A stretch of DNA of 48,616 bases from Gemmatimonadaceae bacterium (GCA_025930755.1 JAICOJ010000015.1:1-48616); one strand, 5' to 3'. Counted from the stretch's first letter, positions 22,084-48,563 are shown. Numbers and translations are program-made. The notes: generated by a model not told the origin, from the letters alone.

Positions 22084-22569
22084 ATGGAAGAGCTACTGCT
22101 CGCGATCGCGTTGGTGGTTGGACTCCTGCTGATCCCGCTCGGCCTGCCTGGCCTTTGGCTCATGGTCGGCTCCGCGCTGCTGTACAGCTACGCGAAGCCC
22201 GGCATCTCGATCTGGACCATCGGGGCGCTTACGGTCCTCGCCCTCATTGCCGAGCTTATCGAGTTCGTTCTGTCGGCACGGTATACGCGCAAGTATGGTG
22301 GGTCGCGACGTGCGGGATGGGGCGCTATTATAGGCGGGGTGGTCGGTGCGTTCGTCTGGACCCCCTTGCCCGTGATCGGCCCGATGATTGGCGCGTTCGC
22401 GGGCGCTTTTGTCGGTGCCTGGGTCGCTGAGATGACGCGCAGCGCCGAGGTTCGCGGCGCCACGCGTGTCGCGACCGGCGCATTGATCGGGCGGATCGTC
22501 GCGGTCGCGATGAAAGTCGGGATTGGGCTCGTGCTCGCGGTGTGGATACTCCTCGCGTTATGGATTTGA
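22084..22569 (+). CDS. DUF456 family membrane protein
   Basis: 161 residues, mostly hydrophobic, with about four membrane segments and small-residue-rich helices (G-A-I-I-G-G-V-V-G-A-F-V, then I-G-P-M-I-G-A-F-A-G-A-F-V-G-A). The order P-L-G-L-P-G-L-W near the start and the glycine zipper pattern fit DUF456, a family of unknown function. It starts 18 nt after the peptidase gene and ends 26 nt before gvpF, so it could be cotranscribed with either. Confidence 0.75.
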   Translation: MEELLLAIALVVGLLLIPLGLPGLWLMVGSALLYSYAKPGISIWTIGALTVLALIAELIEFVLSARYTRKYGGSRRAGWGAIIGGVVGAFVWTPLPVIGPMIGAFAGAFVGAWVAEMTRSAEVRGATRVATGALIGRIVAVAMKVGIGLVLAVWILLALWI

Positions 22570-22595
22570 GCGGATCGGCGGAATCAGGAGCGCGC

Positions 22596-23447
22596 ATGAT
22601 GGACGGGATGGTCTCGGGAGAGGGCCGCACAGTGGAAGCCGACTCGCGTCGCGGCGACGACGCGGTGGGGAAGGGCGGTGAGACGCGCGGCGAGGGAGGG
22701 AAGTACGTGTACTGCATCATCCGCCTCGACAGCGCGCGCGACTTCGGCCCGATTGGCATCGGCGACGGCGCAAACCGCGTGTACACGGTGCACTACAAGG
22801 ATCTCAGCGCCGTGGTGAGCGACACGCCGATCGTGATCTACGATCCCACGCGCGAGAACGTGCTGGCGCACGAGTTCGTGAACGAGACGGTGATGCGGGA
22901 GCACACCGTGATTCCGATGTCCTTTGGCACGGTGTTTCGCTCCGAAGACGACGTCGGCGAGCTGCTGCGGTCGACCTATCAGGCGTTCAGCGATGTGCTC
23001 GACAAGATGCAGGACAAGATCGAGTTCGGGCTCAAGGTCCTCTGGGATCGGGACAAGGTCATCGCGGATCTGGAGCGCTCGAACGACGAGATCCGGCGGC
23101 TCAAGGACGAGATCACGCGCAACACGCAGAGCTCGACATACTTCGCACGCATGCAGCTCGGCAGACTGGTGGAGGGCGCGCTCGAGGACACCGGCAACTC
23201 CTTCGTGTCCGACATCCATGAGACCTTGAAGGAGGTCGCCGTCGCGAGCCGCAGCAACAAGCCGATCGGAGACCGCATGATCATGAACGCCGCCTTTCTC
23301 GTCGAGCGCCATCGCGAAAAGGATTTCGACGAGAAGGTGCGCGAGGTGTCGCGGAAGTACGAGGACCTGCTGACGTTCAAGTACACGGGGCCGTGGCCGC
23401 CGTACAATTTCGTGAATATCAAGCTCAAGCTCGAGAAGGCGGAATAG
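22596..23447 (+). CDS. gvpF: Gas vesicle protein GvpF (GvpF/L family)
   Basis: 283 residues from ATG 22596, chosen because AGGAG at 22586-22590 is at ideal distance; earlier in-frame starts at 22542 and 22560 overlap the previous gene. GvpF is a minor protein that binds GvpA and helps nucleate the vesicle. The core begins at residue 36 (K-Y-V-Y-C-I-I-R) after a hydrophilic leader, and ends with the family signature T-G-P-W-P-P-Y-N-F-V. The middle has a long helical region (E-R-S-N-D-E-I-R-R-L-K-D-E-I). It opens the gas vesicle cluster, with a 124-nt gap before gvpG. Confidence 0.95.
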   Translation: MMDGMVSGEGRTVEADSRRGDDAVGKGGETRGEGGKYVYCIIRLDSARDFGPIGIGDGANRVYTVHYKDLSAVVSDTPIVIYDPTRENVLAHEFVNETVMREHTVIPMSFGTVFRSEDDVGELLRSTYQAFSDVLDKMQDKIEFGLKVLWDRDKVIADLERSNDEIRRLKDEITRNTQSSTYFARMQLGRLVEGALEDTGNSFVSDIHETLKEVAVASRSNKPIGDRMIMNAAFLVERHREKDFDEKVREVSRKYEDLLTFKYTGPWPPYNFVNIKLKLEKAE

Positions 23448-23452
23448 CAACA

Positions 23453-23567
23453 AGGAGTCAGGGGTCAGGGGTCGGGGGTTACAGGGTCGAGGATCGAGGG
23501 AACAACTCGCTACCCTGACACCTCAACCCTTGACCCCCTGATCCCTGACTCCTGACTCCTGACCCCT
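23453..23567. repeat. Inverted repeat, word GTCAGGG, between gvpF and gvpG
   Basis: The left arm has AGGAGTCAGGGGTCAGGGGTC (23453-23473, three GTC words) and the right arm has GATCCCTGACTCCTGACTCC followed by TGACCCCT, ending near 23567. The arms pair with small offsets, since the right arm carries one more word. An inner pair (ACAGGGT 23481-23487 with ACCCTGA 23512-23518) extends the stem. It ends about 5 nt before the gvpG start and leaves no visible Shine-Dalgarno. The same word builds the element at 48441. Confidence 0.88.
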
Positions 23568-23571
23568 CGTC

Positions 23572-23877
23572 ATGGGCCTCCTGTCGAAGATCCTCTTCTT
23601 CCCGGTCACCGGTCCCGTCGCGGGCATTCGGTGGTCGCTCGAGCAGGTGCAGACCGCGGTCGAGACCGAGCTCACCGATGACTCCCGGATCAAGCAGGAG
23701 CTCATGGAGCTGCAAATGCTCGTCGAGCTCGGTGACATCGATGATGCCGAATACGTCCGTCGCGAAGCGCTCCTGATGCAGCAGCTGCGCGAGGTTCGCT
23801 CGTGGCGTGAGCACTTCGGCATGTCGGCGCCGGGCGGGCCGGTCCGTGTCGCGCGCGGAGCTTCCGCGGAGGAGTGA
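23572..23877 (+). CDS. gvpG: Gas vesicle protein GvpG
   Basis: 101 residues. GvpG is a small, mostly helical accessory protein needed for vesicle assembly. The start M-G-L-L-S-K-I-L-F-F-P-V-T-G-P-V-A-G is the family signature, and E-L-M-E-L-Q-M-L-V-E-L-G-D-I-D-D-A-E-Y matches the conserved second half. The last 15 residues (A-P-G-G-P-V...) are variable. It follows the GTCAGGG inverted repeat and overlaps the ArsA-like gene by 4 nt. Confidence 0.95.
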   Translation: MGLLSKILFFPVTGPVAGIRWSLEQVQTAVETELTDDSRIKQELMELQMLVELGDIDDAEYVRREALLMQQLREVRSWREHFGMSAPGGPVRVARGASAEE

Positions 23878-25748
23878 GTCGGCTCGACCCGCTGCTCGCG
23901 TCGCTGCCGCGATGGATCCTGGTAGCGGGCAAGGGCGGAGTCGGTAAGACCACCTGCGCGGCCGCTCTCGCCGCGCGGAGCGCAGGCCTCGGCCGGCACA
24001 CGCTCCTACTCTCGACGGACCCCGCCCGATCGCTGGGCGCGGCGTTAGGCACGGCCGTTGGTCCGACGCCGGGCGCCGTCGCCGGGCGCGAGCGGCTGTT
24101 CGCCATGCAGCTCGAGGCGCAGCATGAACGTGACGCGTTTCTTCAGCGGTGGCGGTCGGTTCTGATCGCCATTCTCGACCGGGGCACGTACCTGAACCCG
24201 GAGGAGCTGGCCGGGTTCGTCGATGATGCGCTGCCGGGAGCCGACGAGGCGATGGCCGTGCTGGCGCTCCTCGAGCTCGAGCGCGATCCCCGATGGGACC
24301 GGATCGTCGTCGACACTGCGCCCACGGGCCACACGCTCCGGCTCCTCGCGCTGCCAGAGACCTTTCGCGCTGTGATCGCGCTGCTCGAGACCATGCAGCA
24401 GAAGCACCGATTCATGGTACAGACGCTGGCTCGCCGATACCGCGCGGACGATGCCGACGCGTTCCTTGCCGACATGCGAGAGCGAGTGGACGCGCTGAGC
24501 GCAACGCTTGCCGACGAGCAGCGGACCGCCGTCGCGCTCGTGACCCAGCTCGAGCCGATGATCGTCGCGGAGACGGTGCGCTACGCCCAATCGTTACGGC
24601 AGCTATCGATTCGCGTGGGCGCGCTCATTCTGAATGCGGTGCCCGAACCCGGCGGGACGGGCCACAACGAGCTGACGGATACGCTCGCCCGCGTTGCGCC
24701 TCACGCACTCCGGTTGACCGTTGCACGCCGTCCCCGATCCCCGAGTGGCCTCCAGGAGATCGAGGCGCTGTTCGACGGCGCCGAGAGAAAGACGGGTGAT
24801 GCCGTGGCGATCACCGGCAGGATCATCGATACACCGCACACGGCGGTGCACACGGCGGTCGCACGCCTGGTGCGCCCCCTGACGATCGTCGCCGGGAAGG
24901 GCGGGGTCGGGAAGACGACCGTCGCCTGCGCCCTCGCCGTGTCGGTGGCTCGCCCGGAGGAGCCCGTGTTGGTCGTGTCCTCTGACCCCGCGCCCTCCGT
25001 CGCGGACGCGCTCGGGCAGCACGTCCCCGATGCAGATGTGGAGGTCGACGGGGCACCAGGGTGTCGAGCTCGGCAGATGGATGCGACGGTGGCGTTCGAG
25101 CGGTTTCGCGCGAGCTACGCCGACCGTGTCGACGCGATGTTCGACCGCCTGATGACGGGCGCGCTCGATCTGGCGCACGATCGGGCGGTCGCGCGCGACC
25201 TCCTTGCCCTCGCGCCCCCGGGCATCGATGAGCTGTATGCGCTCATCACGTTAGGCGAGCTGCTGGCCGAAGGCCGGTATGCGCGCGTCATCGTCGATCC
25301 GGCACCGACCGGCCACTTGCTCCGCCTGTTGGAGATGCCCACGCTCGCGCTCTCGTGGTCGCATCGGCTCATGCGGCTGATGCTGGAGTACAAGGAAGTG
25401 GCCGGGCTCGGAGATGCGGCGCGGGAGATGCTCGATTTCGCCAAACGCACACGCGCGGTGCGGGAGCTCATGGCCGATCCCGATCGGGCATCGATTCTGG
25501 TCGTCGCCAACGATGAGCCGCTCGTCCGCGATGAGAGCGTCCGGCTGATCGATGCGTGCCGCTCACGCGGCATCGCCGTCGGCGGGCTCATCTGGAATCG
25601 GAGTACCTTCGCGGTCTCTCCCCTTTCCGGGGAGGGCACCCCTCGGCAGTTTCTAGCTCCCCGGGCCTCGCCTGCACCTCAGGGGGCACCGGCGCTTCGA
25701 CGCTGGTGCACCACCTGGCGACCGATCGACGAGGATACTGTTGCCTGA
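23874..25748 (+). CDS. ArsA/Get3-like tandem ATPase within the gas vesicle operon
   Basis: 624 residues, GTG start, overlapping gvpG by 4 nt and gvpL by 8 nt. It is a fused duplicate of the ArsA/Get3 deviant-Walker ATPase. Half one has GKGGVGKTT at residues 19-27 and D-T-A-P-T-G-H-T-L-R-L at about 147; half two has GKGGVGKTT at 341-349 and D-P-A-P-T-G-H-L-L-R-L at about 475. Both nucleotide sites look intact. The cysteines are few and do not form the metal-binding triad expected in arsenite pumps or the CxxC of Get3. Neither arsB, arsD nor arsR is near. Its place suggests an assembly or targeting ATPase for gas vesicles; that is inferred from position. Confidence 0.85.
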   Translation: MSRLDPLLASLPRWILVAGKGGVGKTTCAAALAARSAGLGRHTLLLSTDPARSLGAALGTAVGPTPGAVAGRERLFAMQLEAQHERDAFLQRWRSVLIAILDRGTYLNPEELAGFVDDALPGADEAMAVLALLELERDPRWDRIVVDTAPTGHTLRLLALPETFRAVIALLETMQQKHRFMVQTLARRYRADDADAFLADMRERVDALSATLADEQRTAVALVTQLEPMIVAETVRYAQSLRQLSIRVGALILNAVPEPGGTGHNELTDTLARVAPHALRLTVARRPRSPSGLQEIEALFDGAERKTGDAVAITGRIIDTPHTAVHTAVARLVRPLTIVAGKGGVGKTTVACALAVSVARPEEPVLVVSSDPAPSVADALGQHVPDADVEVDGAPGCRARQMDATVAFERFRASYADRVDAMFDRLMTGALDLAHDRAVARDLLALAPPGIDELYALITLGELLAEGRYARVIVDPAPTGHLLRLLEMPTLALSWSHRLMRLMLEYKEVAGLGDAAREMLDFAKRTRAVRELMADPDRASILVVANDEPLVRDESVRLIDACRSRGIAVGGLIWNRSTFAVSPLSGEGTPRQFLAPRASPAPQGAPALRRWCTTWRPIDEDTVA

Positions 25749-26553
25749 TCTCGTTCTCTATGCCTACGCTGTGACACCAGCGTCCCTCGATGCCTCGGGG
25801 GCGCCCGCCGGCGTCGACGACGCGGCGGTCGGAACGGTGATCGAGGGTGACATGGCGGCACTCGTCTCGAGCGTGGACATGGGGGCATATGCGCCGGACC
25901 GTGTCGAGCTCCTCACGGAGGAGGTAGGGTGGGTGGCGCCGCGGGCGTCCGCGCACGATGCGGTCGTCACGTGGGCGGGGGACCGCGGCGCGGTGATCCC
26001 CCTCCCGATCTTCACGCTCTTTCGCGATGAATCGCGTGTCCGGGAGATGCTGCGCGAGCGGGCGCCGGAGCTGCGGGCAACGTTCGAGCGGGTGGGCATG
26101 GGCGAAGAATATGGTCTTCGCATCTTTCGGCTCGACGAGGTGCTCGCGCGCGGCATCGGCGCCCTGAGTCCCAGCGTCGAGGCGCTCGAGCGTCAGGCGC
26201 GCGACGCAACGCCGGGCCAGCGCTATTTACTTCAGCGCAAGCTCGAGGCGGAGCGACGCAATGAGCTCAAGCGGGTTGCGGCCGAGGTCGCTCGCGAATC
26301 GTTCGACACGCTGGCCCCGCTCGCGCTCGAGGCGGTGCGCGAGCCGCTCCCCGCGAAAGGGCGCGATGATGCACCTGGCGTTGCCATCCTCAACGCGTTC
26401 TTTCTCGTGAAGCGCGGCGCACTGGCTCCCTTCCAACAGTCGCTGACGGCGATCGTTCGGGAGCACCAGCCTCACGGCTTCAGGTTCGACTTTACGGGGC
26501 CGTGGCCGCCCTATCACTTTGTGCGCGCGGGCGCTGATGCGGGGGCTCCATGA
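25741..26553 (+). CDS. gvpL: Gas vesicle protein GvpL (GvpF/L family)
   Basis: 270 residues from TTG 25741 (M-P-D-L-V-L-Y-A-Y-A-V-T-P), overlapping the ATPase stop by 8 nt. The GvpF/L family fold is shown by the Y-A-Y-A-V start, V-I-P-L-P-I-F-T-L-F in place of the V-I-P-M-S-F-G motif, and the C-terminal T-G-P-W-P-P-Y-H-F-V. GvpL is a minor assembly protein. It is named by order: F-G-L-S-K-J is the order in the Bacillus megaterium cluster. It overlaps gvpS by 4 nt. Confidence 0.92.
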   Translation: MPDLVLYAYAVTPASLDASGAPAGVDDAAVGTVIEGDMAALVSSVDMGAYAPDRVELLTEEVGWVAPRASAHDAVVTWAGDRGAVIPLPIFTLFRDESRVREMLRERAPELRATFERVGMGEEYGLRIFRLDEVLARGIGALSPSVEALERQARDATPGQRYLLQRKLEAERRNELKRVAAEVARESFDTLAPLALEAVREPLPAKGRDDAPGVAILNAFFLVKRGALAPFQQSLTAIVREHQPHGFRFDFTGPWPPYHFVRAGADAGAP

Positions 26554-26807
26554 CCGGCGCCCCGCTGGATCCCGCGGACGACGATGCGCTCGTGCTGAGC
26601 GACCTGTTGAGCCACGTGCTCGACAAGGGGGTCGTGATCACGGGCGACGTGATCATCTCGATCGCTGGTATCGATCTCATTTCGGTCAGCTTGTCGGTGC
26701 TCATCAGCGCTCTGGAGACCCTGGAGCGCAGGAGCGTCGGCGTCAGCGGACGGCTCTCACACCCGCTTGGCGATCTATCTCTACTGCATCCTCCGCGCGA
26801 CGCGTGA
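26550..26807 (+). CDS. gvpS: GvpA-family minor shell protein, GvpS/GvpM-like
   Basis: 85 residues. The GvpA fold is clear: D-L-L-S-H-V-L-D-K-G-V-V-I-T-G-D-V-I-I-S-I-A-G-I-D-L-I (about residues 18-44), then the second helix L-I-S-A-L-E-T-L-E. The phrase G-D-V-I-I-S-I-A-G-I-D-L is what I associate with GvpS/GvpM rather than GvpA, and its place after gvpL and before gvpK fits gvpS. The last 41 nt overlap the next gene, so the C-terminal S-G-R-L-S-H-P tail shares DNA with it. Confidence 0.85.
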   Translation: MTGAPLDPADDDALVLSDLLSHVLDKGVVITGDVIISIAGIDLISVSLSVLISALETLERRSVGVSGRLSHPLGDLSLLHPPRDA

Positions 26808-27471
26808 GCCGCCGCTCAACCTGCTGGGGATCGACGGCACGCCGGTGCGTGGCGTCGACCTGGACGGACTGGGCGCATGGGTCAGCGAGATGGCGTCGAT
26901 GACCGTCGTGCCGTCGCCGGAGCGCGCGAAGGAGCACGATCGGGTGGTGCGCGCCGCGCTGGAAGACGAGACACCGCTTCCCGCGCGGTTCGGCCAGGTC
27001 GTCGCGAGCGAAGACGAGCTTCGCGCCATTCTGTCGGAGCGCCGCTCCATTCTGGAGTCGGCGCTCGACCGGGTGGCGGGGGCCGTCGAGATGACGGTGC
27101 GGATGCTCGTACCGGCGCCGCGGCGCGCCCCGCTCGACACCTCGGTCGCCGGTGCAACGGGCGCGGCGAGTGGACGTCGATATCTGGAGCGCGTTGCCGC
27201 CGTCCAGCGCGAGGAACGAAACCTGCTGGCAACTGCGGGGATACTTCGCGATCGGGTGGCCTCCGCCGTGGGAGACCTCGTTCGCGCCCAGTCGTTCGCC
27301 GGGGCGGTGGCGGGATCGAGTCTGGCCACGCTGTCGCACCTGGTCCCGCGTGAGAGAATCGAAGCATACCGGAGAGCGCTTCAGACACTCCGGGAGCAAG
27401 ACCCTGCGCTCACCATCATGGTATCAGGGCCGTGGGCGCCCTATAGCTTCACCGAGGGCATCGGCACGTGA
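26767..27471 (+). CDS. Third GvpF/L-family gas vesicle protein
   Basis: 234 residues from TTG 26767 (M-A-I-Y-L-Y-C-I-L-R), overlapping gvpS by 41 nt; no closer ATG or GTG precedes the family start. The core is that of GvpF/L: P-L-P-A-R-F-G-Q-V-V in the V-I-P-M-S-F-G-T position and a C-terminal S-G-P-W-A-P-Y-S-F. The helical middle is shorter than in the other two copies. A GvpF/L gene between gvpS and gvpK is absent from the Bacillus megaterium order, so this is an extra paralogue. It overlaps gvpK by 4 nt. Confidence 0.9.
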   Translation: MAIYLYCILRATREPPLNLLGIDGTPVRGVDLDGLGAWVSEMASMTVVPSPERAKEHDRVVRAALEDETPLPARFGQVVASEDELRAILSERRSILESALDRVAGAVEMTVRMLVPAPRRAPLDTSVAGATGAASGRRYLERVAAVQREERNLLATAGILRDRVASAVGDLVRAQSFAGAVAGSSLATLSHLVPRERIEAYRRALQTLREQDPALTIMVSGPWAPYSFTEGIGT

Positions 27472-27815
27472 GCAAGGACCGCGTGACGGAGGTGACGCCC
27501 GGGGCCGCAGCCGAATTCGAGCGCGAGCTGCACGAGATCGCCCGGTCGTTGCCCGAGCGGATCGACGCGGATCCGGAGCACGTCGAGCAGGGATTGGCGA
27601 AGCTCGTATTGACGTTGATCGAAGTGTTGCGCAAAGTCCTCGAACACCAGGCCGTCCGACGAATGGACGGCGGGTCGCTGACCGACGAGGAGGTCGAGCG
27701 TCTCGGTTTGGCGCTGCTGCGGCTGAGCGAGCGCATGAATGAGCTGAAGCGGCTTTTCAACCTCGACGATGAGGACCTGGAGATCGACCTCGGGCCGCTC
27801 GGACGGCTGCGCTAA
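27468..27815 (+). CDS. gvpK: Gas vesicle protein GvpK
   Basis: 115 residues, GTG start at 27468, overlapping the previous stop by 4 nt. GvpK is a small accessory protein of vesicle assembly. The signature Q-G-L-A-K-L-V-L-T-L-I-E-V-L-R-K-V-L-E-H-Q-A-V-R-R-M is exact for the family, with L-T-D-E-E-V-E-R-L-G and the L-F-N-L-D-D-E-D-L C-terminus also typical. It is followed by a 35-nt gap before gvpJ. Confidence 0.95.
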   Translation: MSKDRVTEVTPGAAAEFERELHEIARSLPERIDADPEHVEQGLAKLVLTLIEVLRKVLEHQAVRRMDGGSLTDEEVERLGLALLRLSERMNELKRLFNLDDEDLEIDLGPLGRLR

Positions 27816-27850: not shown

Positions 27851-28192
27851 TTGCCTGATTACATCGCGCCCACGCGCAGTCACGGCCTGGTCGACATTCT
27901 CGACCGGGTGCTGGACAAGGGACTCGTGATCGCGGGTGACATCAAGATCAACCTCGCCAACGTGGAGCTGCTCACCATCCAGGTGAGGCTCCTCGTCTGC
28001 TCGATCGACAAGGCAGCGTCGATCGGCATGAACTGGTGGCAGCACGACCCTCGCCTTACGACGCGGGCCGCCGACGCTGGCGCGCTGGGCTCGGGGGACG
28101 TCGAGAAGCGGCTGGAGCGCATCGAGCAGCAGCTGCGGCAGCTCACCGAGCGGAGCGGCGCCAAGCGCCGACCGTCCACTTCAACGGAGTAA
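27851..28192 (+). CDS. gvpJ: Gas vesicle protein GvpJ (GvpA family)
   Basis: 113 residues, TTG start at 27851 with GGAG about 12 nt upstream. The GvpA core ([28 protein letters not shown]) and the following S-I-D-K-A-A-S-I-G-M-N-W-W-Q-H-D-P match GvpJ, whose W-W-x-x-D-P motif sets it apart from GvpA. The C-terminal 45 residues hold a short coiled-coil (E-K-R-L-E-R-I-E-Q-Q-L-R-Q-L). GvpJ is thought to help initiate the cone tips. It ends 6 nt before gvpA. Confidence 0.93.
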   Translation: MPDYIAPTRSHGLVDILDRVLDKGLVIAGDIKINLANVELLTIQVRLLVCSIDKAASIGMNWWQHDPRLTTRAADAGALGSGDVEKRLERIEQQLRQLTERSGAKRRPSTSTE

Positions 28193-28198
28193 CGGCGA

Positions 28199-28513
28199 AT
28201 GGCAGTCGAACGTGCCCCCGGTGGCAGTTCCCTCATTGACGTTCTCGATCGCGTCCTCGACAAGGGCATCGTGATCGACGCATGGGTCCGCGTGTCCCTG
28301 GTCGGCATCGACCTGGTGACCGTCGAAGCACGCATCGTGGTGGCTTCGATCGACACGTACCTGCGCTTCTCCGAGGCGGTGGGCATCACGGCGCCCTCGG
28401 CACGACCGCGCGAGCTGTCGGCGGGCGGCGAGGCGGAGCTCGATCGCGTGATGCGCGAGAACGCGGACCTCAAGCGCCGACTCGAAGAGGTCAGTCGTCG
28501 CGATCGCTCCTGA
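28199..28513 (+). CDS. gvpA: Major gas vesicle wall protein GvpA
   Basis: 104 residues. GvpA polymerises into the ribbed gas-permeable shell. The core [27 protein letters not shown] (about residues 10-36) and [15 protein letters not shown] are nearly canonical. Unlike the roughly 70-residue cyanobacterial protein, it has a 35-residue C-terminal extension with a heptad-like segment ([18 protein letters not shown]). It is last among the gvp genes rather than first, with GGAG 10 nt before the ATG, and a histidine kinase gene starts 6 nt later. Confidence 0.95.
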
Positions 28514-28519
28514 CGTCCG

Positions 28520-30814
28520 ATGCGGGTCCCGCGGAATGCCGCCGAAGCTCCGGCGCGGTTGACCGGGGACGACCTGAACGGGCTGCTGACGTCGCTGGCG
28601 CGGGCGCAGTCGTGGACCGATGCAGCGCACATGCTCCTCCGCCAACTTGCCCAGACGGCCGGGGCGCGTCGTGCGCTGCTGCTGATGATCGACGGCGCCG
28701 CCCACCAGCTGAAAGTGACGCACGTGGTGGGCGCGCCGGAAACGCTCGGCACGGACGCGCTGATTCAGCTCGACGAGAACGATCATCCGCTCGTCGTCTC
28801 GGCCATGTCGCTCGAGGCGGTGGCCTGCCGAGATGCCGTCCTCGAGCACGATGGCATCCCGTTCCGGCCGTGGGCGGCGATACCCATCCCGCAGCCGCTG
28901 CACCGCGACTCGCTCCCGCGCGCCCGCAACGGCGAGCTCGCCTTCACCGGGCGATTCCGCGATTGCGGAGTGATGCCGGTGGGAACGGAACGCCGCCGCC
29001 GCGTCGGCCTCTCTCCCTTCGCCGTCGCCGTTCTCGAGTCGAGCATCGATCTGGAGACCGTCGAAGCACTGGCCGAGATGGCGAGTGTCGCCGGTCCGAT
29101 CGTCTCGCACATCTTCAGCGTCGAGGAGCAGCGACGGTACGCCGAACAGCTCGACCGGCAAACGAATCTGCTCACGGCCATCATCAACGCGTTGCCCGAT
29201 CCGATCGTCATCACCGATACGGCGAACGCGATCGTCGTGCTCAACAAGCGGGCGGAGCAGCTCCTCGGCATGCGGCCCGATGATTCGGAGGGACGCCGGC
29301 GCGCCGTCGAAATCAACAACCTGCTCTACAGCTCCTTCCTCGCGAAGGCGATATCGCCGGGTGGCCTGGGGGCCGGAGCGCGGGAGCTCAATCTCGTCGA
29401 TCCCACCGAAGGGACGGACCTCCTGTTCGAGGTGTTGGCGCACCCGCTTCCGGTGGAGATGGCACGGCGCGGCTCCACGCTCTCGGTGCTGCGCGATGTG
29501 ACCGATCTCAAGCAGGCCGCGCACCAGCTGCAGCGGCAATTCCATCGCGAGCGCCTCGCCGAGCAGCAGGCCTCCCGCGAGCGCGATCGTCTCGGGCTCA
29601 TACTCCAGAACGTCGCCGATCCGATTCTCGTCACCGACGGAAAATCGAACATCATCCTGATGAATCGCCAGGCGGAGGAGCTCTTCGAGCTCACCGACGC
29701 CACCCGCCGCGATCAGACCATCATTCAACGGGTGCGCAACAACGACACGAAGGTCACCTCGTTCATCTCCGACTTCGCGCTCACGAACGACCGCGCCCGG
29801 CGGGCGCAGGTGTCGCTCGTTCGACCCTCGACGGGCGCGGCACTGCCCATGGAGATGGTGTCGGGAAAGATCTTCGACGAGCGCGGCGAGCCCATGGCGA
29901 TCGTGTCGGTGCTGCACGATCGGACGAAGGAGGTCGAGAACGAGCGGCTCTACGAGGAGCTGAAGCGCTTCAGCGCCGAGCTCGAGGATCGGGTGCGGGA
30001 GGCAACGCGCGATCTCGAGGAGCGCAATCTGCGCCTTCAGTGGCAGTCGCAGGAGCTCGAGAAGGCCTATCGGCTCAAGAGCGAGTTCCTCGCCAATATG
30101 TCGCACGAGCTGCGAACCCCGATCAACGCGCTGATCGGCTATGCCTCGCTCATGCTCGACCGTATCTACGGCGATTTGACCGCGAAGCAGGAGGAAGGGC
30201 TGCACCGCATTCAGGTCTCGTCGCAGCATTTGCTGGCGCTCATCAACGACATTCTCGATCTGGCGAAGATCGAGGCCGGGAAGATGCCGGTCCACCTCGA
30301 GCGCCTCTCGCTCAACGACCTCCTGCAGGACGTCGCGGCACAGATGGAGCCGCTGGTGCGACGAAAGGGCCTCGACTTCAACGTGCAGCTGCCGGCAGAG
30401 CCGGTACAGATGGAAACCGATCGCACGAAGGTGCGGCAGATCGTGCTCAACCTCGTCTCGAACGCGGTGAAGTTCACGGCACGCGGGTCGGTGTCGATCG
30501 CGGCGAGGACGGACGGCCGGGATGTGCGCATCGCGGTGAGCGACACGGGTATCGGGATCCGGCCGCAGGACCTCGAGGTGATCTTCGAGGAGTTCCGACA
30601 GGTGGACCAGTCGCGCACGCGTGAGTACGGCGGGACCGGACTGGGCCTGAGCATCACGCGAAAGCTCATCGCGCTTCTCGGCGGGGACATCGCGGTGACC
30701 AGTCAATACGGCCGCGGCAGCACGTTCACGGTGACACTGCCGCTGACAAGCGAGACGCTCACGAGCGACGAGCAGGTGACGCGCGTGGCCTTGGCGCCGC
30801 CACCGCGGACGTAG
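28520..30814 (+). CDS. Soluble GAF/PAS sensor histidine kinase linked to the gvp operon
   Basis: 764 residues, no membrane segment or signal peptide. Residues about 15-200 look GAF-like. Two PAS domains follow (one beginning I-I-N-A-L-P-D-P-I-V-I-T-D, about 220-335; one beginning I-L-Q-N-V-A-D-P-I-L-V-T-D, about 360-475), then a coiled coil, a HisKA domain with phospho-histidine H529 (S-H-E-L-R-T-P-I-N) and a HATPase domain with N-L-V-S-N-A-V-K-F, D-T-G-I-G-I and G-G-T-G-L-G-L boxes. All kinase motifs are intact. It starts 6 nt after gvpA, so it is probably cotranscribed. No partner regulator is adjacent. Confidence 0.92.
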   Translation: MRVPRNAAEAPARLTGDDLNGLLTSLARAQSWTDAAHMLLRQLAQTAGARRALLLMIDGAAHQLKVTHVVGAPETLGTDALIQLDENDHPLVVSAMSLEAVACRDAVLEHDGIPFRPWAAIPIPQPLHRDSLPRARNGELAFTGRFRDCGVMPVGTERRRRVGLSPFAVAVLESSIDLETVEALAEMASVAGPIVSHIFSVEEQRRYAEQLDRQTNLLTAIINALPDPIVITDTANAIVVLNKRAEQLLGMRPDDSEGRRRAVEINNLLYSSFLAKAISPGGLGAGARELNLVDPTEGTDLLFEVLAHPLPVEMARRGSTLSVLRDVTDLKQAAHQLQRQFHRERLAEQQASRERDRLGLILQNVADPILVTDGKSNIILMNRQAEELFELTDATRRDQTIIQRVRNNDTKVTSFISDFALTNDRARRAQVSLVRPSTGAALPMEMVSGKIFDERGEPMAIVSVLHDRTKEVENERLYEELKRFSAELEDRVREATRDLEERNLRLQWQSQELEKAYRLKSEFLANMSHELRTPINALIGYASLMLDRIYGDLTAKQEEGLHRIQVSSQHLLALINDILDLAKIEAGKMPVHLERLSLNDLLQDVAAQMEPLVRRKGLDFNVQLPAEPVQMETDRTKVRQIVLNLVSNAVKFTARGSVSIAARTDGRDVRIAVSDTGIGIRPQDLEVIFEEFRQVDQSRTREYGGTGLGLSITRKLIALLGGDIAVTSQYGRGSTFTVTLPLTSETLTSDEQVTRVALAPPPRT

Positions 30815-48440: not shown

Positions 48441-48563
48441 GCAGGAGTCAGGGGTCAGGGGTCAGGAGTCAGGGGTCAGGGATGGAAAGGCGCGGCAGCC
48501 AAGCTGCCGCGCTCCTCTGATGGGGCCGCGCCGCCGTTGCATCCCTGACCCCTGACCCCTAGC
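48441..48563. repeat. Inverted repeat, word GTCAGGG, after the deacetylase gene
   Basis: The left arm (48441-48483) has five GTCAGGG/GTCAGGAGTC words; the right arm ATCCCTGACCCCTGACCCCT (48541-48560) pairs with the last three of them. The loop holds a perfect 10-bp hairpin, GCGCGGCAGC (48490-48499) with GCTGCCGCGC (48503-48512), around CAA. It begins 2 nt after the stop codon and lies between convergent genes if the minus-strand fragment at the end is real. Confidence 0.9.

Follow-up and report, generated by a model that had tools for sequence, protein, structure and literature searches.

Among the closest described relatives of the protein analysed here are the two-domain ArsA homologues that Castillo and Saier reported in 2010 from gas vesicle (gvp) operons of four phyla (PMC2963123). 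These homologues fell outside the arsenite cluster and lacked the arsenite cysteines, and they were proposed to energise a step of biogenesis distinct from that served by GvpN (PMC2963123). A 2017 study of co-evolving cyanobacterial genes likewise clustered ArsA with eight gas vesicle proteins (PMC5464585), and in Nodularia the ArsA gene nsp15480, listed under arsenic, comes after the gvp genes nsp15380-15470 in locus-tag order (PMC3610870). We found no functional test of the gvp-operon ATPase in the literature and, among openly licensed papers, none that treats gas vesicles and Get3 together; the gvp linkage is already known, and within that literature the Get3 reading appears unpublished. 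The original prediction had known of no characterised role for this family in gas vesicle formation, which stands as far as functional tests go and needs correcting for the association and the energising role published in 2010.

On the gas vesicle side, GvpA, GvpJ, and GvpM are prone to aggregation if each is produced on its own; GvpF binds GvpA, GvpL binds GvpJ and GvpM, and both GvpF and GvpG are proposed GvpA chaperones (PMC9501494, PMC11445434). Without the ATPase, gvpA together with gvpNJKFGWV is enough for A. flos-aquae gas vesicles to form in mammalian cells, and when 15 clusters were tried in E. coli, just a few gave detectable gas vesicles (PMC10344784). On the ATPase side, Chlamydomonas ArsA1 (CrArsA1) is a CXXC-less pseudodimer that carries chloroplast tail-anchored (TA) proteins (PMC11170914), and Get3 homologues, unlike ArsA, retain a hydrophobic Get3-motif/TRC40 insert (PMC10248533).

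The window, as we call the whole stretch of DNA that was analysed, comprises 48,616 nucleotides from a Gemmatimonadaceae bacterium (GCA_025930755.1, JAICOJ010000015.1:1-48616). It carries a tightly packed gvp operon, followed by a kinase gene:

22542 to 23447, plus strand: GvpF/L-family protein, first of three (PF06386, E=1.4e-78)
23572 to 23877, plus strand: GvpG (PF05120, E=2.1e-20)
23874 to 25748, plus strand: tandem Get3/ArsA-type ATPase, 624 aa (PF02374 twice; TIGR00345 above cut-off; AlphaFold mean pLDDT 84.5)
25741 to 26553, plus strand: GvpF/L-family protein, second (PF06386, E=4.9e-54)
26550 to 26807, plus strand: GvpA-family minor protein, GvpM-like (PF00741, E=1.7e-13; best NCBIfam model GvpM, below cut-off)
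26767 to 27471, plus strand: GvpF/L-family protein, third (PF06386, E=6.8e-46)
27468 to 27815, plus strand: GvpK (PF05121, E=1.2e-32)
27851 to 28192, plus strand: GvpA-family protein, GvpJ-like (PF00741, E=1.3e-16; best NCBIfam model GvpJ, below cut-off)
28199 to 28513, plus strand: GvpA, the major shell protein (PRK09371/NF006874, 113.9 bits against a cut-off of 100)
28520 to 30814, plus strand: PAS histidine kinase directly 3' of gvpA (HisKA, HATPase_c, PAS)

Upstream of the ATPase gene the order is GvpF/L, GvpG, and downstream it is GvpL/F, GvpM-like, GvpL/F, GvpK, GvpJ-like, GvpA. The ATPase ORF starts with GTG and shares 4 nt (23874-23877) with gvpG and 8 nt (25741-25748) with the gvpL/F gene that follows; together with the full gvp neighbourhood, these overlaps bear out the operon membership that had been predicted. 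The genome has three PF00741 genes, all of them in this operon, and no ars gene was found among the operon's genes. The window gene is a real member of the published but neglected gvp-ArsA association. It resembles clusters 4 and 6 of Castillo and Saier, which are two-domain proteins of about 600-650 aa encoded in gvp operons and lacking the arsenite cysteines. Their analysis drew on a handful of genomes and proposed no Get3-like chaperone role for gas vesicles, whereas here the trees below favour a duplication separate from the one in arsenite ArsA, and the gene order in the window is gvpG-ATPase-gvpL.

Several other features of the region were recorded. The listed start of the first gvpF/L ORF is probably too early, because it overlaps the preceding ORF (22542-22569) and the Pfam match begins only at residue 53. 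The PAS histidine kinase (28520-30814, ~765 aa), possibly a regulator of gas vesicle expression, has a relative at the same site in nearly all gvp clusters of the window's phylum, with or without the ATPase, and further relatives in three myxobacterial-type gvp loci (L040, L051, and L212). Heptamer arrays (about TCAGGGG) in palindromic layout occur at 23456-23564, between gvpF and gvpG, where the hairpin is very stable (-80.4 kcal/mol, z -8.3), and at 48446-48557, close to the window end. With ten matches observed against 0.25 expected, these palindromes look like a dispersed palindromic repeat family.

The ATPase itself matches Pfam ArsA_ATPase twice (E=5.4e-91 for the whole protein) and scores 300 bits against the NCBIfam GET3/ArsA/TRC40 subfamily model (TIGR00345, cut-off 135). 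Its landmarks are as follows:

23928 to 23951, plus strand: N-half deviant Walker A, GKGGVGKT, residues 19-26 (translation and alignment)
24312 to 24332, plus strand: N-half switch II, DTAPTGH, residues 147-153 (invariant in the alignment)
24333 to 24512, plus strand: N-half helical segment from switch II to the L.D motif, 60 residues (domain alignment)
24792 to 24848, plus strand: low-confidence linker between the halves, residues 307-325 (pLDDT < 50)
24894 to 24917, plus strand: C-half deviant Walker A, GKGGVGKT, residues 341-348 (alignment)
25296 to 25316, plus strand: C-half switch II, DPAPTGH, residues 475-481 (alignment)
25317 to 25475, plus strand: C-half helical segment, 53 residues (domain alignment)

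Both halves also keep the signature lysine of the P-loop and a switch-I aspartate (D49 in the N half, D371 in the C half). This gvp-operon protein has two complete ATPase sites, in agreement with the two complete deviant-Walker halves (GKGGVGKT, switch-I Asp, and D[T/P]APTGH in each) that were originally described. The AlphaFold model (mean pLDDT 84.5, pTM 0.80) places helices at residues 151-186 and 193-213 of the N half, and the N-half helical segment occupies the position where the client-binding helices of Get3 lie. A C-terminal frameshift, considered for the odd last 40 residues, was ruled out by the pattern 'G..ALR.W...W', which is conserved among relatives.

Routine annotation would make this protein an arsenite-pump ATPase. 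Arsenite-pump ArsA (E. coli, L. ferriphilum) does share its tandem ATPase halves and overall fold, and the top Foldseek matches are arsenite ArsA structures, which rank by E-value above Get3 and CrArsA1. Because of that ranking, overall fold cannot separate the families; arsenite ArsA and Get3 have a common fold, and the fold search was useless as a family discriminator. By sequence, the closest solved protein is 5zme, Chlamydomonas ArsA1 (E=7.6e-92). The arsenite-pump reading is hardly credible given the remaining evidence: the protein scores 180.8 bits with the arsenite-ArsA equivalog TIGR04291, far below its cut-off of 650, it belongs to a separate clade, and its operon holds no ars gene. 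We take the metalloid-site cysteines of R773 ArsA to be C113 and C422, which correspond to C115 and C423 of our reference, an E. coli plasmid copy, and the third metalloid cysteine of arsenite-pump ArsA to be C172; the plasmid reference has only C28, C115, and C423, leaving two arsenite-site cysteines mappable. In the alignment, C115 is replaced by V and C423 by G in the window ATPase, and none of the 42 gvp doubles has a cysteine at either mappable position. Judged at these two cysteines, the arsenite site is absent, a difference from pump ArsA, where the arsenite cysteines are present. A plasmid-borne arsenic gene was also ruled out, all plasmid matches being below 60% identity; the top-listed ones were mostly arsenite ArsA, with the exception of one gvp plasmid of Nostoc. 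The Get3-like rather than arsenite-pump character put forward for this protein is where its sequence points.

A second difference from the arsenite pumps lies in the client-type helical segment, measured from switch II as far as the L.D motif. In every gvp lineage it is 60 residues long in N halves and single-domain proteins, and 53 in C halves; the N and C halves of arsenite-type ArsA have 46 and 34. The count of V/I/L/M/F in this segment is ~21 per gvp half and ~11 in the arsenite type. Relative to arsenite ArsA, each half thus has a lengthened, hydrophobic, client-type helical segment. The same stretch spans 64-69 residues in CrArsA1 and archaeal Get3 (67-69 in archaeal Get3), so that the gvp segment is intermediate in length, shorter than that of true Get3, and Get3-like in hydrophobic count.

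The zinc motif connects the family to Get3, although it was not found in the window ATPase itself. The CxxC is intact at the Get3 zinc position in the gvp-linked singles L149 (CPFC), L193 (CQFC), and L207 (CEFC), that of L149 aligning with the motif of archaeal Get3 3ug6 and 3zq6, and five fused proteins of myxobacterial or Thiohalocapsa type (L040, L049, L051, L212, and L213) carry it twice, once per half. In ten Chlorobi-type singles the motif has decayed to one remaining cysteine, as in SGFC; it is missing from all 15 doubles of the window's phylum, and the 22 cyanobacterial doubles yield one isolated match. The original prediction had the cysteines for arsenite and zinc both lacking. This is correct for the window protein (V and G at the two mappable arsenite positions, no CxxC), but loss of the CxxC is not a trait of the family. 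The motif is also absent from the reported CXXC-less TA binders (PMC11170914). The gvp ATPase resembles archaeal and eukaryotic Get3 (TRC40) in its deviant Walker A, switch motifs, and client-segment position, and in the zinc CxxC kept by some gvp-linked relatives, and differs in that Get3 is a homodimer with a longer segment (67-69 in the archaeal proteins) and membrane-protein clients, whereas the window protein is a fused tandem without CxxC. Chlamydomonas ArsA1 (5zme/5zmf) is likewise a single-chain Get3-type pseudodimer with no CxxC and a client-type segment longer than that of arsenite ArsA; it differs in carrying chloroplast tail-anchored proteins.

Trees of single ATPase domains (quick trees with SH-aLRT support only) united the gvp-linked N halves, C halves, and singles of five phyla in one clade (SH-aLRT 99.9%), apart from arsenite ArsA and Get3d. 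Support was 98.3% with archaeal Get3 and CrArsA1 references, whose rows came from printed search alignments, and 97.4% with Get3d-like rows; the rows do not include the sequences of Castillo and Saier themselves. Single-domain gvp-linked relatives exist in Chlorobi and at L149. Forcing the N halves together, as a duplication common with arsenite ArsA would have it, costs 126 log-likelihood units and is rejected (AU p=1.6e-5), whereas the same constraint on the C halves is not (AU p=0.12). A duplication of the gvp ATPase separate from that of arsenite ArsA is therefore favoured, not proved. A clade of all gvp ATPases plus CrArsA1 is compatible with the data (p=0.67), and derivation of the algal ArsA1 from cyanobacterial gvp copies, with CrArsA1 joined to the cyanobacterial copies alone, was rejected (p=0.017).

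If the ATPase were mostly beside ars genes in relatives, with gvp linkage confined to this genome, the proposed role would fail; we found gvp-linked copies in five phyla, forming a clade of their own. In the window's phylum, every strong ATPase relative in 395 genomes belongs to a gvp cluster, the usual gene order being F-G-ATPase-L-GvpM-L-K. Throughout the survey, loci were called by HMMs built from the window's own Gvp proteins, by which small genes may be missed, and fragmented assemblies lower the counts. GvpK occurs in 39 of these 395 genomes. The ATPase is in the cluster in 18 of the 39 (17 double or fragment, one single), and in the other 21 the whole genome yields nothing at E<=1e-25. 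One short possible fragment, in G346, shows 57% identity. The genomes without ATPase include close relatives with otherwise similar clusters (L133 and L143). Elsewhere, Myxococcota and Thiohalocapsa have double ATPases, the phylum of Chlorobiaceae has a single-domain ATPase adjoining a GvpA-family gene, with GvpN present in most loci, and four other proteobacterial gas vesicle genomes yielded no ATPase.

The cyanobacteria bear on whether the protein might be a bacterial chaperone of Get3 type that serves membrane proteins or aggregation-prone ones in general and has by chance been kept in gvp operons. GvpK is found in 31 of 194 cyanobacterial genomes; among these, a double ATPase lies near gvpK in 21, lies elsewhere in eight, and was not found in two. 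In the tree, the cyanobacterial copies form one clade irrespective of linkage to gvp, with several unlinked copies placed among linked ones, and the eight genomes with gvp-unlinked orthologues leave room for a gas-vesicle-independent role. Linkage across five phyla argues the other way, as do the exclusively gvp-linked strong relatives in the window's phylum, where no copy occurs elsewhere when the cluster is without the ATPase, and the 2017 grouping of ArsA with gas vesicle proteins (PMC5464585); we consider a general chaperone unlikely. In five of the eight genomes, neither gvpA nor gvpN was seen near gvpK. Gvp-type double ATPase orthologues away from gvp genes are those of Lyngbya (L041) and of L236-L243, also cyanobacterial; the Lyngbya protein is counted in the gvp clade, with no gvp gene within 10 kb and GvpN in its genome. 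Six cyanobacterial loci (L178, L180, L183, L184, L191, and L223) hold gvpK, some with gvpF and gvpG, and no gvpA or gvpN was detected in them (~30 kb each side for five); either they are remnants, or these genes serve some purpose other than gas vesicles.

The survey also speaks to whether the ATPase replaces GvpN for wall growth in lineages that lack gvpN. GvpN is an AAA+ protein and the window protein a deviant-Walker ArsA/Get3 one, the likeness being that the ATPase, too, is encoded in gas vesicle clusters. No GvpN (TIGR02640) above cut-off was found genome-wide in the window genome, nor any match within the ATPase ORF, and the GvpN model is absent from the best 25 NCBIfam matches of the window ATPase. 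All 39 gas vesicle genomes of the phylum sample lack GvpN above cut-off, as do the L040 and L051 genomes, which encode myxobacterial-type doubles, throughout; none was seen at L212 in the stretch examined around the locus. However, the proposed link to gvpN absence is unsupported on two counts: GvpN is missing in the window's phylum (0/39) whether or not the ATPase is present, leaving 21 genomes with neither, and in cyanobacteria the ATPase goes with GvpN, being in the cluster at 21 of 24 GvpN-positive and none of seven GvpN-negative loci (Fisher p=4.6e-5, kinship ignored). Both proteins also occur together in Chlorobi, Thiohalocapsa, and the myxobacterial locus L213, and in Myxococcota the association of the ATPase with GvpN absence is not significant (Fisher p=0.52). 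Substitution for GvpN is rejected as a general rule, given the co-occurrence in several phyla and the 21 genomes with neither, and we regard it as quite improbable even for lineages without gvpN.

Alternatively, the ATPase could power or regulate the assembly machinery—the GvpF/L/G/K scaffold, nucleation, or a MinD/ParA-like positioning—without holding shell helices. In the window its gene lies between gvpG and gvpL/F; across the window's phylum it tracks the module of GvpM-like and third GvpL genes, occurring in 13 of 17 clusters with this module and none of 11 compact ones (p=6.7e-5); and an energising role is all that Castillo and Saier proposed (PMC2963123). However, the compact clusters possibly amount to one or two clades, in which case one or two loss events would be enough to produce the correlation. 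The long hydrophobic segment of each half, together with the zinc motif of relatives, also argues for client handling in the manner of Get3. We consider a role confined to the machinery fairly unlikely. The compact clusters themselves (L120-L147, e.g., L120, L121, and L124) contain two GvpF/L genes, GvpG, GvpK, and two GvpA-family genes, and their genomes have neither GvpN above cut-off nor the ATPase.

The reading that we prefer, at roughly even chances, is that the protein is an ATP-gated Get3-type chaperone that hands GvpA-family helices to the gas vesicle wall. It would be a single-chain pseudodimer of two Get3-type domains specialised for gas vesicle assembly. When closed with ATP bound, the two halves would together form one groove holding the hydrophobic helices of GvpA-family proteins (GvpA or GvpJ/GvpM), which the groove might take from, or pass to, the neighbouring GvpG and GvpF/L; hydrolysis would then open the groove and release the subunit at the growing wall. 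The position of the gene between gvpG and gvpL and the Get3-type pseudodimer fit such a relay step. The covalent tandem may stand in for the zinc-bridged homodimer that classical Get3 forms; loss of the CxxC in this lineage would then be understandable. We counted in favour of the chaperone the single gvp clade, the N-half test, the CxxC in relatives, the long hydrophobic segment, the 5zme match, and the published aggregation of GvpA-family proteins with GvpF and GvpG as proposed chaperones; against it stand the A. flos-aquae gas vesicles made in mammalian cells without the ATPase, the 21 of 39 gas vesicle genomes of the window's phylum without a copy, the eight unlinked cyanobacterial copies, the Foldseek ranking, the C-half result (p=0.12), and a segment shorter than that of true Get3. 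Because clusters without the ATPase exist and published gas vesicles form without it, the protein must be an accessory efficiency factor and not a core part. The fuller proposal of a dedicated Get3-type targeting ATPase, with gas vesicle shell proteins as clients, a separately duplicated pseudodimer, and GET-like delivery to a protein shell rather than a membrane, we hold more tentatively, at somewhat less than even.

Finally, gas vesicles serve as acoustic reporters, and the solubility and insertion of their very hydrophobic shell protein is an unsolved problem. An overlooked ATPase, routinely annotated as an arsenic pump and lying outside the published Anabaena construct, is a candidate assembly factor. 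New here are a gvp ATPase clade over five phyla, the CxxC in relatives, the lengthened segment, and CrArsA1 as the best solved match. If the proposal is true, the Get3 family would have been recruited to a client destination other than the membrane, and tandem Get3-type proteins would have arisen more than once.
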